From: Pseudomonadota bacterium
Lineage (GTDB): Bacteria; Pseudomonadota; Gammaproteobacteria; Pseudomonadales; UBA5518
NCBI GenBank assembly: GCA_022705125.1
Contig: JAKJFB010000183.1
Location: 1 to 6,144, forward strand
Reading direction: 5' to 3'
DNA: 6,144 nt
Position 1 is the first letter of the stretch. Each line of letters begins with the position of its first letter. Made by a program: the position numbers and the translations under genes. This document shows positions 1-6,144 of this stretch, in pieces. The notes under the pieces were generated by a model. That model was not told where the DNA came from, did not search any database, and saw nothing but the letters and a program-made list of their open reading frames with translations.

Positions 1-1
1 A

Positions 2-1646
2 GACATGCTGCTGGAACTGCTCGGGCGAAACTCGTTGCTCTGCAATGATGCCGAGCTGTTCGAGGTGGAAGGAAAGTGGAAGGTCGAGGGCGACCCGACC
101 GAGGGCGCGCTCTATCCGTTTGCGAGCAAGCTCGGCATGACGCGCGAAGCCGAGCAGGCGGCCTACCCGCGCATCGACGCGATCCCGTTCGAATCCGAGC
201 ACAAGTTCATGGCGACGCTGCACCGCGCAGCCGACGGCAGGGAGCTGCTGTTCGTCAAGGGGGCTCCCGAGGTCGTGATGGCCAACTGCGACCGCCAGCA
301 ACTGTCCGACGGCGGGCACGCCCCGCTCGACCGGGAGCATTTCCAGCAGGTTTCCGACCAGTTCGCCGGCCAGGGCGAGCGCGTGCTCGCACTCGCCTGG
401 CTGGAAAACCCCGGCCTGCAGGCGGGAAAGTCCGGCGGTCAAGAGCGGCGGTCTCACCGCCGCCGATCTGCCGAAGAATCTGGTCCTGCTGGGGCTGATC
501 GGCCTGCTCGACCCGCCGCGCAAGGAGGCGATCGAGGCGGTGGCCGAGTGCCACGCGGGCGGTATCCGCGTGACCATGATCACGGGCGACCACCGCATCA
601 CCGCGGCCGCGATTGCGAGGATGCTCGGCATCGGCGACGGCAAGACGGCCATCGTCGGCGCCGAGATCGAGGAGATGAACGAGGCGCAACTGCAGGAGGC
701 GGTGCGCAACGTCGACGTGTTTGCGCGCACCAGCCCGGAGCACAAGCTGCGGCTCGTCAAGGCCGTGCAGGCCAACCGGCAGATCTGTGCGATGACCGGC
801 GACGGCGTGAACGATGCGCCGTCGCTAAAGCAGGCCGACATCGGCGTTGCGATGGGCATCAAGGGCACCGAGGTCACGAAGGAAGCCGGGGACATGATCC
901 TCGCGGACGACAACTTCGCCTCGATCAGCGCGGCGGTCAAGGAAGGCCGCACGGTCTACAACAACATCGAGAAGGCGATCCTGTTCCTGTTCCCGACCAA
1001 CGTCGCGCAGGCGCTCGTCATCGCGATGGCGATCTTCCTCGGCTTCTCGATGCCGATCACGGCGCCGCAGGTGCTCTGGGTCAACATGGTGACTTCGGTC
1101 GCGCTCGGCCTTGCCATCTGTTTCGAGCCGCACGAGGCCGACGTGATGAGCCGCCCACCGCGAGCGGTCGACCGGCCGATCCTGACGGGCTTCGGCATCT
1201 GGCGCGTGATTTTCGTCGGCCTCGCGCTGCTGGCCTTCACGCTCTGGGCCTTCTTCTGGATGAAGGACCAGGGCGCATCCGAGGGGCTCGCCCGGACCGT
1301 CGCCGTCAACGCGATCACCATCGGCCAGTGCTTCTTCCTGCTGAACAGCCGCTACCTGACCGACAGCTCGCTGTCGTTCAAGGCGCACATGGAGAACAGG
1401 TACGTCGGCTTCGGCATTGGCGCGGTCATCGTCCTGCAACTGCTCTTCACCTACGCGCCACCGCTGCAGGCACTGTTCGGCAACGAGTCCGTCCCGGCCT
1501 ACCTATGGCCGGTCCTGCTCGCCGGCGGCCTCGTGTTCTTCCTCGTCGTCGAGCTCGAGAAGATGATCATCCGTTCCAGTGTCACCCTCAAGACGCTCGT
1601 GACCGGCGTCGAGGCGGGCGCGGGAGCCCCGGAGCGGGCGATCTAG
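2..1646 (+). CDS. P-type cation-transporting ATPase (P2/Ca2+-ATPase-like), 5'-partial and frameshifted
   Basis: This is the C-terminal part of an inner-membrane ion pump that couples ATP hydrolysis to cation transport. It starts outside the window, so the actuator domain and the DKTGT phosphorylation motif are absent. The first frame (codons from base 2) shows nucleotide-domain motifs GDPTEGAL (from base 89) and KGAPE (from 257). The second frame (codons from base 423) continues with LLGLIGLLDPPR, MITGD, the hinge motif TGDGVNDAP (about 795-821) and AMGIKGTEV. About six hydrophobic segments follow (roughly 970-1045, 1060-1125, 1190-1260, 1290-1350, 1395-1455, 1490-1560), as in the Cation_ATPase_C region. 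Joining the halves requires removing one base near 421-431. The ion is uncertain: in the segments matching SERCA M5/M6, N768, N796 and T799 are kept, but E771 is Gln and D800 is Ser. The family is certain, the substrate is not. It could be a pseudogene or an intact gene with a sequence error. Confidence 0.9.
421..435 (+). other. Frameshift site in the P-type ATPase gene
   Basis: Upstream of here the protein reads ...LALAWLENPGLQAG in one frame. Downstream the homologous reading ...SGGLTAADLPKNLVLLGL lies one base later. The switch equals one surplus base. It falls next to two adjacent homopolymers, GGG at 424-426 and AAA at 427-429. Removing one base from either run gives a smooth ...LQAGSPAVKSGGLTAADL... 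reading. Because the region is GC-rich, the original frame does not hit a stop until 1778-1780, so the shifted product would be a long chimera with no membrane segments. A homopolymer miscall and a genuine +1 mutation look the same from sequence alone. Confidence 0.85.
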
Positions 1647-1718
1647 CCCGTAGGTCGGTATTCATGCCGACATTTGCGTTTCCGGATGCCTCTGTCGCCA
1701 TGAATGGCGACCTACGGG
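1647..1718. repeat. BIME-like pair of inverted REP hairpins with GTAG heads
   Basis: Two 26-base arms (1647-1672 and 1693-1718) are inverted copies of each other with only three differences, separated by 20 bases. Each arm is also its own hairpin: 1654-1671 has an 8-bp stem with a TC loop and one G-T wobble, and 1694-1711 has a perfect 8-bp stem. Directly outside each stem is the tetranucleotide GTAG (1650-1653 on plus; 1712-1715 as CTAC, so GTAG on minus). That is the head-plus-hairpin layout of REP elements mobilised by RAYT (TnpA-REP) transposases. It begins at the base after the ATPase stop codon, so it could also protect or end that transcript, although no T-run follows. Assignment to the REP class is by structure, as genome copy number cannot be seen here. 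Confidence 0.8.
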
Positions 1719-1812
1719 GCCACGGCGCGGAAGATCGCCCGGTGCGCTCGAGTCTGCTGCGTAGCCTATATGGGTCATGACGACGTGCAGAATGTGTCCG
1801 CCGGCTTCACGC

Positions 1813-1839
1813 TTGCGCGAGTGACTGCATTTGTATATG
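1813..1839 (+). promoter_or_regulatory. Putative sigma-70-type promoter of the toxin-antitoxin operon
   Basis: A possible -35 box TTGCGC (1813-1818) and -10 box TATATG (1834-1839) are separated by 15 bases, shorter than the ideal 17. The -10 sits inside an AT-rich patch that stands out in this GC-rich sequence and lies between the two arms of the inverted repeat at 1822-1849. Transcription would start near 1845, about 30 bases before the antitoxin start codon. The match to consensus is modest. The placement and the enclosing repeat are better evidence than the boxes themselves. Confidence 0.4.
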
Positions 1840-1849
1840 GTTGCAGTCA
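1822..1849. promoter_or_regulatory. Inverted-repeat operator, probable FitAB autorepression site
   Basis: A perfect 8-bp inverted repeat TGACTGCA (1822-1829) and TGCAGTCA (1842-1849) is spaced by 12 bases, so the half-site centres lie 20 bp apart, about two helical turns on one DNA face. It ends 27 bases before the antitoxin start codon and brackets the likely -10 element. FitAB and VapBC complexes are known to bind inverted repeats in their own promoters through the ribbon-helix-helix antitoxin. Binding here would occlude RNA polymerase. The repeat is seen directly; the binding is inferred from family behaviour. Confidence 0.6.
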
Positions 1850-1876
1850 TAGAAGGCAAACGAGAGGATTTGAAGT

Positions 1877-2131
1877 ATGGCAATCCTGACCGTAAGGAAT
1901 GTGCCGGATGACGTGCATCGCGCTTTGCGCGTGCGGGCGGCCCAACACGGCCGTAGTACGGAAGCGGAGGTGCGCGAGATTCTGGCCGCCGCGGTCAAGC
2001 CGGAGAAGCGCGTGCGTGTGGGCGAAGCCCTCGCCGCCATCGGCCGCAAGATCGGCCTGGCCAATGAAGATTTCGCTGTCTTCGAGAGCGTGCGCGACAA
2101 GACGCCGGCCAAACCGTTGAGCTTCGACTGA
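1877..2131 (+). CDS. FitA-like ribbon-helix-helix antitoxin
   Basis: An 84-residue antitoxin that should neutralise the PIN toxin encoded immediately downstream and repress their shared promoter. The N-terminus (residues 2-8, AILTVRN) is the DNA-contacting beta strand, followed by helices at about 11-24 and 28-40. The VPDDVHRALRVRAAQHGRS and EVREIL segments are typical of the FitA-like/plasmid-stability RHH family. The C-terminal tail, about residues 65-84 with FAVFESVRD and ending in SFD, fits the region that wraps the toxin and covers its active site in FitAB-type complexes. The ATG at 1877 is preceded by a GAGAGG Shine-Dalgarno (1862-1867) at a suitable distance. Its TGA directly abuts the ATG of the toxin gene, which implies translational coupling. 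Length is normal for the family and no defect is visible. Confidence 0.9.
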   Translation: MAILTVRNVPDDVHRALRVRAAQHGRSTEAEVREILAAAVKPEKRVRVGEALAAIGRKIGLANEDFAVFESVRDKTPAKPLSFD

Positions 2132-2560
2132 ATGATCGTCCTGGATACGAACGTCGTTTCCGAGGCAATGAAACCGGAGCCAGACGCGGCCGTGAGGGCT
2201 TGGCTGAACGACCAGGCGGCGGAAACCCTGTACCTGTCCAGCGTCACGCTGGCCGAGTTGCTGTTTGGCATCCGGGCGCTGCCGGCGGGCAAGCGCAAGA
2301 ACATGCTCGACCGCGCCCTGAACGAACTGCTGGAACTGTTCAAGGATCGGGTGCTGCCGTTCGACACGGATGCAGCGCGCCATTATGCAGACCTGGCCGT
2401 GACGGCCAGGGTCGGCGGGCGCGGATTCCCGACGCCAGACGGCTACATCGCGGCCGTCGCGGCATCGCGGGGCTTCATCGTGGCATCACGCGACACATCG
2501 CCCTATGAAGCGGCCGGCGTGACTGTCATCAACCCTTGGGAGGAGGGTGGCGCGACGTAG
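2132..2560 (+). CDS. FitB/VapC-like PIN-domain ribonuclease toxin
   Basis: A 142-residue PIN-domain toxin, predicted to be a Mg2+-dependent endoribonuclease that halts growth by cutting RNA when free of antitoxin. PIN acidic residues are present: D5 in LDTNVVSE, E42 in LAELLFGI, D103 in TPDGYIAA and D121 in ASRDTSPYE. The protein ends with the INPWE motif usual in FitB/VapC proteins of this subgroup. Length is normal and the active site looks complete, so the toxin should be functional. The start ATG immediately follows the antitoxin stop codon, and only a weak purine stretch lies upstream, so translation probably depends on the antitoxin reading frame. The many VapC-family relatives make the RNA target unpredictable; tRNA or rRNA is known for some, and it is unknown here. 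Confidence 0.9.
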   Translation: MIVLDTNVVSEAMKPEPDAAVRAWLNDQAAETLYLSSVTLAELLFGIRALPAGKRKNMLDRALNELLELFKDRVLPFDTDAARHYADLAVTARVGGRGFPTPDGYIAAVAASRGFIVASRDTSPYEAAGVTVINPWEEGGAT

Positions 2561-2739
2561 CAAAGCGTGCTCTCGGGCGCGTGATCGACTCTTGCACCGA
2601 TGTTCAACAAATCGCGCGGCGTCAATTCGACCACGCGGCTGGCCGGAATGCGCAGCTTGGCGTTCCTGCGTCGCCCTGGCATCGATGCGCGCCGCGCGCA
2701 TGTGGCCGCCGCGGCGCCCGTAGACAGCAACTCCGGCGC
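2561..2739. other. Convergent intergenic gap between toxin and jetD-like genes
   Basis: These 179 bases separate two gene ends that point at each other. I find no strong stem-loop followed by a T-run on either strand. The best palindrome is CGCCGCGGCG at 2707-2716, which has no T-tract. On the minus strand, an ORF starting at ATG 2682 and ending at 2503 (59 residues) crosses the gap and overlaps the toxin end. Its middle part (NAKLRIPASRVVELTPRDLL) has coding-like third positions but matches nothing I recognise. It may be a gene remnant or chance. Confidence 0.4.
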
Positions 2740-3933
2740 TCATCGTTGCCGCAGGTCGCCGAGTAGCACTTCGGCGATTGCTTCCTCGTCGATGGCGAGG
2801 CGTTCGGCAAGCATCGCGCCCGCCAGTGCGTCGTCCCACAGCGCTCTGACGGCGGCATCGTCGAGGCGACGCCCGGGGCGCGGCGCGCCGACGAGGGCTG
2901 CGCGATAGTCGGCTGCCGAAAAGCGCCACGGCCGGGCGTCGTGCTCACCGACGAGCTGGTTGCCGATGCGAAGGCCGGGCCAGTCGAAGTCGCCGTGGTA
3001 ATGCAGCGTCGCGCCGGCCGCGCGCAGCTGCGTGAGCAGGACGCGCTGGGCCGCGGCCGGCATGCCGTCGGTGCACACCAGCGGCGCACAGCGTGGCCCC
3101 AGCTGGTCCGCGGCGATCGCCAGCAGGTTCGGGTTCTCGCACACGAAGACCGGGCGGCCCGTGATGGTCCAGGCTGGCGGCGAACGCAGCAGGCGGCGCA
3201 GCGAGAGATAGGCCGGTTCGCCCGGGTCGGCACCCGTCGGCCCGGGGAGGTTTAGCGCCAGCGCCGGTCGTGCGAGTTCGTTGACCAGCACGCCGGCAGA
3301 GGCCCACACGTCGCGCACGCGTTCGCCGTCGTCGTCGGCCGCGGCCCCATGGCGCAGCGCCATGAGGACCAGCGTGCCGACTCGGGTACCGGCGTCGAGC
3401 GCGTGCGCATCGCCGAGCGCGGTAACGGCCAGCTGTGCCCGCGGCATAGCTGCCGCGGGCAGCAGCCGCAACACCTGGTCGGCCTCGCGCACGAGGCGGG
3501 CGCCGGTCTCGGGTCGCCTGGCACCGAGCCGCTTCAGCAGCCCGAGTCCGGTGGACGTTTGCAGGGTCGCACGCAGGCCGGCATGTTCGCAGCTCTCGAC
3601 CACCTGCTCCCAGTGCGAGCGAACGCGCAGGCGTTCGGCAGCCCCGTCGATGATCGGCCCGTCGAGCTGCTCGAGCGCATCGCGCAGGGACGTGGCGAGA
3701 CCCGCACGGGCGAGCGCGGCGTCGATCTCCGCCACGTCGATCTGCATCGATCGCACGTAACGCGCAGGGCGCCCGGCGAGTGCCGCAAGCGCCGCGTGTT
3801 CGGCTTCGTTCAGCGCGCCGAGGCGCACGACCGCGGTCGGTGCGCCGCCCTCGTAGCGCTGGCGAAGCCGCTTGCGCAACGCCGCCAGCGCGTCGCCGCC
3901 CAGGAGCCGTTGCAGCCGCGCATTCATCATCAT
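2740..3933 (-). CDS. jetD: JetD-like Wadjet nuclease subunit (TIGR02679 family; DUF3323/DUF2399, Toprim)
   Basis: A 397-residue protein, full length for TIGR02679. It is predicted to be the DNA-cleaving subunit of a Wadjet SMC complex, related to topoisomerase VI-type proteins and acting on plasmid DNA in the cytoplasm. The N-terminal half matches the DUF3323 style (residues about 10-215, with GALNEAEHAAL and an alpha-helical middle). The C-terminal half is DUF2399 with a Toprim core: VFVCENPNLLA places the catalytic Glu at 266, and HYHGDFDWPGLRI gives the DxD pair D315/D317. These metal-binding residues are intact. The gene lies 3 nt after the jetC-like stop codon. Its first three codons are all ATG (from 3933), so the exact start is ambiguous by two residues. 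A GGGAAG stretch at about 3942-3947 is a plausible ribosome site. Family assignment is from motifs and gene order. Wadjet type (II or III) is left open. Confidence 0.88.
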   Translation of the reverse strand: MMMNARLQRLLGGDALAALRKRLRQRYEGGAPTAVVRLGALNEAEHAALAALAGRPARYVRSMQIDVAEIDAALARAGLATSLRDALEQLDGPIIDGAAERLRVRSHWEQVVESCEHAGLRATLQTSTGLGLLKRLGARRPETGARLVREADQVLRLLPAAAMPRAQLAVTALGDAHALDAGTRVGTLVLMALRHGAAADDDGERVRDVWASAGVLVNELARPALALNLPGPTGADPGEPAYLSLRRLLRSPPAWTITGRPVFVCENPNLLAIAADQLGPRCAPLVCTDGMPAAAQRVLLTQLRAAGATLHYHGDFDWPGLRIGNQLVGEHDARPWRFSAADYRAALVGAPRPGRRLDDAAVRALWDDALAGAMLAERLAIDEEAIAEVLLGDLRQR

Positions 3934-3936
3934 CGT

Positions 3937-6144
3937 TCAGGCTTCCCGCCCGGCCGTCGCGGGCAAGTCCTGCGCGCCCTCGGGCGGGAAGCGTCGATCC
4001 GGATCGTCGTCGCGCCGACGAGCCCGACCGTCCCAGCTCCAGCGCGAGACGTGCACCGCGTCGATGCCCTCGCGTCGCTGCAGCTGGCAGATCGCCACGC
4101 CCGGCAGATCGGCGTAGCAGGCCCACTCACGCTCGCTGGTGATGACGAAATCCAGATCGAATTCGCGGATCAGTCCCATGCAATGCGCGCGCGCGGCGTC
4201 GTCGATGCCGGCGAAGGCTTCGTCGAGCAGCACCAGGCGTGGCGCGAAGGCGTAGCTGGCCTGGCTGTAGAAACTCGAAACCGCGGCAAAGAGCGGCACC
4301 GTGAGGCCGAGCGCGCGTTCGCCGCTCGAGGCGGGGCCTGAGAGCGGGCGCCACTGCCCGTCCTGCCAGCGCTGGACGCGAAAGCGATGCCAGCGCCGAT
4401 AGTCGAGCGCGCGGGCGAGCTGCTCGAGCAGGCTGCCGCCGGCCGCGTCGGCCTTCAGGCGCTCGGCCGCGATACGCTGGTGCAGCATCTCGCCGACCAC
4501 CCGCCGGTCCTCGGCCGACCACAGGTCGGTGCTGGTATTGAGCAGGCGCTTGCGTGCGGTCTCCAGGCCCACCGGCGCGCCTTCGCTGCCCTCGGGCAGC
4601 GGTTGCCACAACAGGCGGAACCTGACTCCGGTGGAGGTCGGGCGCTTGTGCAGCTCCTTGTTGATCGCATCGACCTGGCGCTCGGCCGCCTGCAGGAGCC
4701 GCTGCACTTCGGCGGCGATTTCGGCCTGCAGGTGGTTTTCGAGCAGCGTGCGCTCGCGCGCCGTCAGGAGCTCGCGCCGCTGGGCGATCTCGGCGTCGAG
4801 GCGGGTCATCAGCTGGTCGGGGCGTTCCGGGCGGTTCTGGTAGATGACGCCGACGACGAGGCCGTAGTCGCTGGTGTCGGCCTGGGCCTGATGCCCGAGC
4901 GCGGTGAGGGAGCGCCCCAGATCGGCGTAGTCGTGCGAGATCTGGCTCTGGATGCGCGTCCACGCCTCGTCGTCGTCCGCCACCTGCGCGAGGGCCTGCT
5001 CGGTGCGGCGCGCAAGGCTGAGCGCCGGTTCGATCGTCCACGGTGTACGCAGGTCGGGCACGTCGGCCCCGGGCAGTGCGACGGACAGCAAGCCCGTTGC
5101 GGCAAAGCCCTGCAGCTGCGCGATGGTGCGTTGGCGCGCCTCGGCGCGCTCCTGCAGGGTGGCGTCGGCGTCCTGCATCTTCTGCTCGCCGCGGGCGCGT
5201 GCTTCGCCGGCCGCGCGGAGGGCTTCGCCTTCCGCCTTCGAGCGGCGCTCGCCATCGCTCACGGCATGGCGCGCCTCGCGCAGCCGTCGTTCGAGCTCCT
5301 CGACCCGGGCGCCGATCGATTCGCGCAAGGTGCTGAGCCGCACCTGAGCTTCCTCGGCCTGGCGGCGGCGCTCGGCGAGTTGGTCGGCGCGCTGGCGCGC
5401 GTCGGCCTCGGTTTCCCGTGTCCGTTCCTGCTGCCGTGCTAGTTCCGCTGCCGCCAAACGCAGTTCGTGTGCTGCCTGGAAGAGCGCATGCGAAGTCTCG
5501 CCGAAGTGCGTCAGCGCGGCGCCGACGGCCTCCAGTGCCTCGGGCGTGGTGGGCAGGTGCAGGTCGGTCGCGTCGGTCGCCAGCGCATCGCGGCAAAGCT
5601 GCAGGGCGTCGGCCGTGGCGCGCAGTTGCCTTTCGGCTTCGCCGAGCCGGCTGCGCGCGGCCTGCAACTCGCGCTCGCCGGCCGCGGCATCGGCGTGGGC
5701 GGCGCGCAGGCCCTCGTCGGACGGCGCACCCTGCCATTCGGCGGCCGCGCGCTCTTGCCGTCGCGCCAGCTCGGCCAGCGCCTCGTCGATCTGGTCTGTT
5801 GCTTCGGTGATCTCGCCCAGGCGCAGCTCGATCCCGGCGAGCCGTCGCGCACGCGCGGCGGCACGTGCGGCGTAGCCGATGTAGGCGGCCTGCGATTTCT
5901 GCCAGGTTCCGGCCAGTGCACCGAGGCGAAAACGCCCGTCGGGCGAGATCCAGCCTTCGGCCCGGCCGTCGTCGTGCGCGCAGCAGGCGATGCCTTCGAG
6001 CAGGCGCGTGAGCAGCGCGGCATCGACGCCGGGCGTTGCGGCAACGGCCGACGGCTCGAGCCAGGCGGCGAGCGAAGCGCTCTGTCGCGGCCGTTCTGTC
6101 CACCGCGTGTCGTGCACGAGCGGCGCGCCGTCGGCCCCCTGCAG
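3937..6144 (-). CDS. jetC: JetC-like Wadjet SMC ATPase, C-terminal part (TIGR02680 family), 5'-partial
   Basis: The C-terminal 735 codons of a large SMC-like ATPase; the frame is open to the right edge, so the start is outside. Family members are about 1,300-1,400 residues with Walker A at the far N-terminus, not visible here. Counting from the internal GTG at 6117, coiled-coil-like segments rich in Glu, Arg, Ala and Gln run over about 85-180, 205-340 and 440-490. The C-terminal ATPase lobe has the signature SSGERALGL (597-605; bases 4303-4329), Walker B LVLLDE with D632/E633, D-loop AGIDD (636-640), and FVITSEREW (657-665) in the switch region, then SRWSWDG. This follows the SbcCD_C/TIGR02680 pattern, so ATP-driven DNA loop extrusion is inferred from studied Wadjet complexes. 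The stop is 3 nt before jetD, showing one operon. MukB or SbcC are alternatives; the adjacent TIGR02679 gene argues against both. Confidence 0.88.
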   Translation of the reverse strand: MQGADGAPLVHDTRWTERPRQSASLAAWLEPSAVAATPGVDAALLTRLLEGIACCAHDDGRAEGWISPDGRFRLGALAGTWQKSQAAYIGYAARAAARARRLAGIELRLGEITEATDQIDEALAELARRQERAAAEWQGAPSDEGLRAAHADAAAGERELQAARSRLGEAERQLRATADALQLCRDALATDATDLHLPTTPEALEAVGAALTHFGETSHALFQAAHELRLAAAELARQQERTRETEADARQRADQLAERRRQAEEAQVRLSTLRESIGARVEELERRLREARHAVSDGERRSKAEGEALRAAGEARARGEQKMQDADATLQERAEARQRTIAQLQGFAATGLLSVALPGADVPDLRTPWTIEPALSLARRTEQALAQVADDDEAWTRIQSQISHDYADLGRSLTALGHQAQADTSDYGLVVGVIYQNRPERPDQLMTRLDAEIAQRRELLTARERTLLENHLQAEIAAEVQRLLQAAERQVDAINKELHKRPTSTGVRFRLLWQPLPEGSEGAPVGLETARKRLLNTSTDLWSAEDRRVVGEMLHQRIAAERLKADAAGGSLLEQLARALDYRRWHRFRVQRWQDGQWRPLSGPASSGERALGLTVPLFAAVSSFYSQASYAFAPRLVLLDEAFAGIDDAARAHCMGLIREFDLDFVITSEREWACYADLPGVAICQLQRREGIDAVHVSRWSWDGRARRRDDDPDRRFPPEGAQDLPATAGREA

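Follow-up and report, generated by a model that had tools for sequence, protein, structure and literature searches.

JetC and JetD of a type II Wadjet operon in a gammaproteobacterial contig and the setting of its relatives

Wadjet systems are bacterial defences believed to eliminate plasmids and other small circular DNA. The question raised by contig JAKJFB010000183.1 of a Pseudomonadota bacterium (assembly GCA_022705125.1) is whether it carries part of such a system, of which type and in what condition. We analyzed its positions 1 to 6,144, and this whole stretch is referred to below as the window. An initial annotation had described the C-terminus of an ATPase of the structural maintenance of chromosomes (SMC) type, followed after 3 nt by a Toprim protein, and both frames are indeed open at that place. 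The first encodes the C-terminal 735 residues of the SMC-type ATPase JetC (3937..6144, minus strand), and it remains open to the right end of the window, the N-terminal half with the Walker A motif lying beyond 6144. The second encodes the Toprim nuclease JetD (2740..3933, minus strand), complete from ATG to stop with 397 aa, and only positions 3934-3936 separate its ATG from the JetC stop. We are highly confident that this segment belongs, as its 3' half, to a type II Wadjet (JetABCD) operon, an ordinary and well-preserved, if partial, member of a known system.

Profile scores support this identification. In NCBIfam, TIGR02680 matched the JetC fragment at 906.4 bits over profile positions 647-1356 of 1356 (cut-off 462.85 bits) and TIGR02679 matched JetD at 459.1 bits over positions 2-382 of 382 (cut-off 196 bits), both so far over the cut-off that they support the Wadjet SMC operon first proposed. 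JetD also carries DUF3323 and DUF2399 (PF11796 and PF09664 in Pfam), and with these all four profiles that had been suggested as a check found their match. Typing was done with the PADLOC models. JetC2 gave 752.2 bits and JetD2 436.5 bits, the models of the other types being far weaker (JetC1 up to 45.8 bits, JetD3 10.5 bits), and for the window JetD no JetD1 row appeared at E up to 1. Because JetC2 and JetD2 win by such a wide margin, the type is, by profile comparison, II. The initial annotation had left the choice between types II and III; these scores settle it as type II. With the window, the less-studied type II gains a JetC/JetD pair that looks intact.

Relatives of the locus were collected from genome contigs, which were scanned using an alignment built from 25 JetD sequences. 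The best 80 of at least 547 relatives were retained as loci, all from Pseudomonadota by title except L017 (Frankia) and L049 (Acidobacteriaceae). Since the search itself required JetD, its mere presence in them has no weight as evidence. JetA, JetB, JetC and JetD were found in this order on one strand in 73 of the 80 loci, JetA and JetB standing there where the initial annotation had placed them, and six of the remaining seven (L002, L012, L022, L025, L048 and L063) meet a contig end there. In the last one, L043, the genes JetB, JetC and JetD are present and no JetA match appeared in the 992 bases before JetB. The locus of Azoarcus sp. Aa7 (L001), whose JetD is 82% identical to that of the window, has the full JetABCD in one operon. 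Its genes correspond in order to TIGR02677, TIGR02678, TIGR02680 and TIGR02679, JetA being DUF2397 and JetB DUF2398, and all four score best with the PADLOC models JetA2, JetB2, JetC2 and JetD2. There the two genes JetC and JetD share 4 nt, in contrast to the 3-nt gap of the window.

A type I Wadjet (MksBEFG) or a housekeeping SMC such as MukB or SbcC could share some of these features. In Pfam, JetC matches PF13558 (SbcC_Walker_B), which describes a domain of 90 positions in SMC-like ATPases, at 67.9 bits, the JetC1 models do give their weak matches, and the fold of JetD is common to type I JetD and MksG. Nevertheless, against the scores of TIGR02680, JetC2 and JetD2, and with DUF2397 and DUF2398 partners present in the Azoarcus relative, we consider the probability of this explanation practically negligible. 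The best chromosome-SMC model for JetC was SMC_prok_B, with 28.7 bits against a cut-off of 567.35 bits and against the 906.4 bits of TIGR02680, and there were no MukB or SbcC models among the four NCBIfam rows for the window proteins, so the MukB/SbcC alternative fails.

Both the ABC signature and the Walker B motif are present in the C-terminal head of the window JetC, as read from the sequence and the alignment. The signature or C-loop, GPASSGERALGL, occupies fragment residues 603-614 (4303..4338, minus strand), and Walker B with the loop that follows it, RLVLLDEAFAGIDD, residues 636-649 (4198..4239, minus strand). FVITSEREW begins at residue 666, and the three motifs quoted in the initial annotation were therefore all recovered. 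Motif conservation was assessed over 81 sequences, those that did not cover a motif being left out of its count. All 12 letters of GPASSGERALGL were identical in 77 of 78 covering sequences (three had no coverage), with an R-to-G change in L043 as the single exception. The D and E of Walker B were kept in every covering sequence (77 of 77). Walker A could be followed in the relatives, where it reads GNNG(T/S/A)GKS in 77 of 78 covered sequences and GNNGTSKS in the other one, again L043. The signature loop itself is ASSGE, not (L)SGGE, in all 78 covering sequences, and such constancy across the sampled relatives points to a regular feature of theirs and not to damage in the window copy. The same ASSGE is found in a Cupriavidus plasmid copy (L081), and LSGGE in two actinobacterial plasmid copies (L082 and L083). 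We regard this variant, constant as it is among the sampled relatives, as a modest testable lead.

The sole credible sequence match of the window proteins in the PDB was the JetC of 9qe0/9qe1 (E 2.7e-37), presumably from the type II Wadjet of Neobacillus vireti (nvJET). The alignment takes in fragment residues 435-710 and, as a weak match, 24-296, and the C-loop of that JetC reads SGGEK where the window has SSGER. We take 9qe0 to be the nvJET entry from its molecule name.

The acidic residues of the JetD Toprim domain are intact and stand at exactly the numbers given in the initial annotation. E266, the first of them (3136..3138, minus strand), and both aspartates of the DxD motif D315-F316-D317 (2983..2991, minus strand) do not vary in any of the 81 sequences, which argues for a nuclease function. 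In MksG, the substitutions E236A and D279A are described as drastically impairing (PMC10123090). An AlphaFold model of the window JetD resembles the type I JetD of Pseudomonas aeruginosa (7til), the MksG of Corynebacterium glutamicum (8b7f) and topoisomerase VI-A (1d3y). The Toprim nuclease fold is thus common to the window JetD and the first two, neither of which matches it in sequence at E up to 1, and JetC1 likewise stays far below JetC2.

Several observations weigh against the identification of the window as a working type II operon. JetA, JetB and the Walker A of JetC lie, for this copy, outside the window (beyond 6144). The C-loop of JetC departs from (L)SGGE, although uniformly so among the sampled relatives. 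The JetD model has a pTM of 0.49, with low-confidence stretches at 173-182 and 212-220. The JetD sequence gave no match to PDB chains at E up to 1, and a JetD profile against the PDB returned just five rows (E 0.083 to 2.5), none of them a JetD. Finally, 15 of about 309 gene copies in the relatives were flagged as split or interrupted, and although some of these are perhaps extraction artefacts, any given copy may consequently be dead. These flagged copies, together with the position of the upstream genes outside the visible stretch, would fit a degraded or orphan JetC-JetD remnant in which JetA, JetB or the N-terminal head of JetC has been lost and the locus is inactive. A locus of this appearance may exist among the relatives, in Accumulibacter (L043:2111-9316), where besides the changed Walker A a gap of about 1.65 kb, with a small DUF3990 gene in it, separates JetC from JetD; this is possibly a decaying system. 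For the window we find a remnant improbable, as both frames are open, every visible motif is kept and the four genes are all present in 73 of 80 relative loci. That the type II system of the window is probably active, as had been suggested, is a reasonable inference from the visible part.

How the system would work can be proposed by homology with published relatives. JetABC is reported to extrude DNA, with cleavage by JetD once the extrusion of a small circle has finished (PMC10586767, PMC12647877). In the same way, the window JetC, together with a JetA and a JetB encoded outside the window, would form an ATP-driven SMC motor extruding DNA loops. When a plasmid-sized circle had been fully extruded, a JetD dimer, each subunit with its N-terminal arm and Toprim domain, would be activated and cut the circle. 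Loop extrusion, completion sensing, cleavage and plasmid exclusion are all predicted here from those relatives. A type II complex might alternatively have another main duty, for instance chromosome organisation or phage exclusion, plasmid cleavage being secondary. It is indicated in PMC10586767 that most research has dealt with type I and that types II and III may recognise other substrates, and the C-loop is atypical in the sampled relatives. We still judge such a duty very improbable, in view of the invariant acidic residues of JetD and of the account in PMC12647877 that naked circular DNA is cut by the type II complex nvJET, obstacles not being bypassed.

Downstream of JetD, the window holds two genes that converge on it. 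A FitA/VapB-like antitoxin gene (1877..2131, plus strand; PF22513, 75.5 bits) is followed by one for a VapC-like PIN-domain toxin (2132..2560, plus strand; PF01850, 67.1 bits), which is convergent with JetD. A block 91.5% identical to this VapBC pair follows JetD in L003, where the stop codons of JetD and VapC are about 8 nt apart and the DNA match stops at the C-terminus of VapC. L006 has another such block, of 76-80% identity, about 1.2 kb past JetD. Weak matches to VapC without VapB (29-35% identity) were obtained in L005, L017, L021 and L039, those of L021 and L039 being PIN-domain proteins. VapBC was considered as a fifth component of the operon and rejected: just two of the 80 loci, L003 and L006, match both genes, and we therefore treat the pair as a neighbour. 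A HigBA-like regulator conserved ahead of JetA was also considered and rejected, as it was matched only in L001. The flanks of L001 are different from those of the window, with guaA, a SNF2-type helicase and the gene of a HigB toxin whose partner resembles PD-Lambda-2_B of PADLOC, in contrast to VapBC and a P-type ATPase. Beyond the VapBC that follows JetD, L003 (9271-12154) has genes for a RES-domain protein, an Xre/MbcA/ParS antitoxin and HipA. In the plasmid collection, a Variovorax paradoxus record of 2.5 Mb has a stretch 87.5% identical to the window VapBC (1877-2560).

The guaA gene recurs next to the relatives. It was found in 14 of the 80 loci on the JetD side and on the opposite strand, with its 3' end facing JetD (tail-to-tail). 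The distance is smallest in L067, at about 25 nt, and largest in L033, at about 9.7 kb; examples are L001:14420, L004:9480 and L039:14628. The label was first given by eye from the sequence, and five of the 14 were run in NCBIfam, all five being GMP synthase. Any given gene would by chance be found within 10 kb in well under 1% of loci, a rough estimate from genome sizes for loci that are related and not independent. Within the end of guaA is the 8-base core at which islands are reported to integrate (PMC7775301, PMC9376610). An 18-base pattern of this end, with up to 2 mismatches, occurred in 15 of the 80 loci, namely the 14 and L044, and not at all when every locus was shuffled once by single bases. 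In L001 and L039 a second att-like copy is present beyond JetA, enclosing about 12.6 and about 13.3 kb, respectively; the remaining guaA loci had no second copy inside the examined stretch. The copy of L044 (position 20646, 1 mismatch), a stretch without a guaA match, may mark an island's far end. Next to guaA, L039 and L042 have a tyrosine integrase that carries an Arm-DNA-bind_3 domain, and L039 also has PIN-domain and AbiEi-like genes. None of the three non-Jet frames between the repeats of L001 is an integrase by Pfam, suggesting an island without a visible integrase. The tRNA genes were rejected as integration target, since one was found in only 5 of 56 loci scanned (of the 80).

A guaA-flanked defence island is described in Stenotrophomonas maltophilia (PMC11680222), so that this site was already known for defence genes. 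A literature search aimed at a link of guaA with type II Wadjet surfaced none, and the TIGR and DUF family names used as a literature query returned nothing related. The recurrent site is a modest lead that could help to explain the sporadic spread of type II Wadjet. The window itself has no guaA and no copy of the 18-base pattern even at 4 mismatches, its left flank being made of other genes. One may speculate that type II Wadjet in Pseudomonadota is, along with toxin-antitoxin modules, cargo of tyrosine-integrase islands that insert at the 3' end of guaA, that the VapBC of the window is a trace of such an island, and that the fixed ASSGE marks a derived motor, maybe with an ATPase timing other than that of the (L)SGGE type II; we hold this proposal as a whole to be rather doubtful.

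The spread of JetD was estimated in the order to which L001 belongs, over 399 genomes with the centre genome counted and at most a few candidates per genome scored, and in 14 control genomes. TIGR02679 was over its cut-off in 3 of the 399 (8 at E 0.001 or better) and in none of the controls, a sporadic occurrence as expected of a defence gene. Relatives of JetD were present on 24 plasmid records, none with a single place covering 80% of JetD. The Cupriavidus taiwanensis plasmid NZ_CP016951.1 (L081; 578 kb, typed conjugative) has a complete annotated TIGR02677-TIGR02678-TIGR02680-TIGR02679 operon, an anti-plasmid system carried on a plasmid. Carriage by viruses was rejected: phage records gave no match to a JetD relative, and 26 pattern stretches in viral contigs included not a single relative.

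As for the rest of the window, no known RNA element was detected at gathering score. Between 1600 and 4200 no promoter-like sites were found, and the one terminator-like site there (1654-1671) is within the shuffle mean. Beyond VapBC, positions 2-1646 hold the 3' part of a gene for a P-type (calcium-type) ATPase, rejected as a companion gene with a match in 0 of the 80 loci. Its reading frame is not the same throughout: PF13246 is read in one frame as far as about 296, and from about 549 onward the hydrolase and C-terminal domains lie in a different one, a change that may be a real frameshift or an assembly error.

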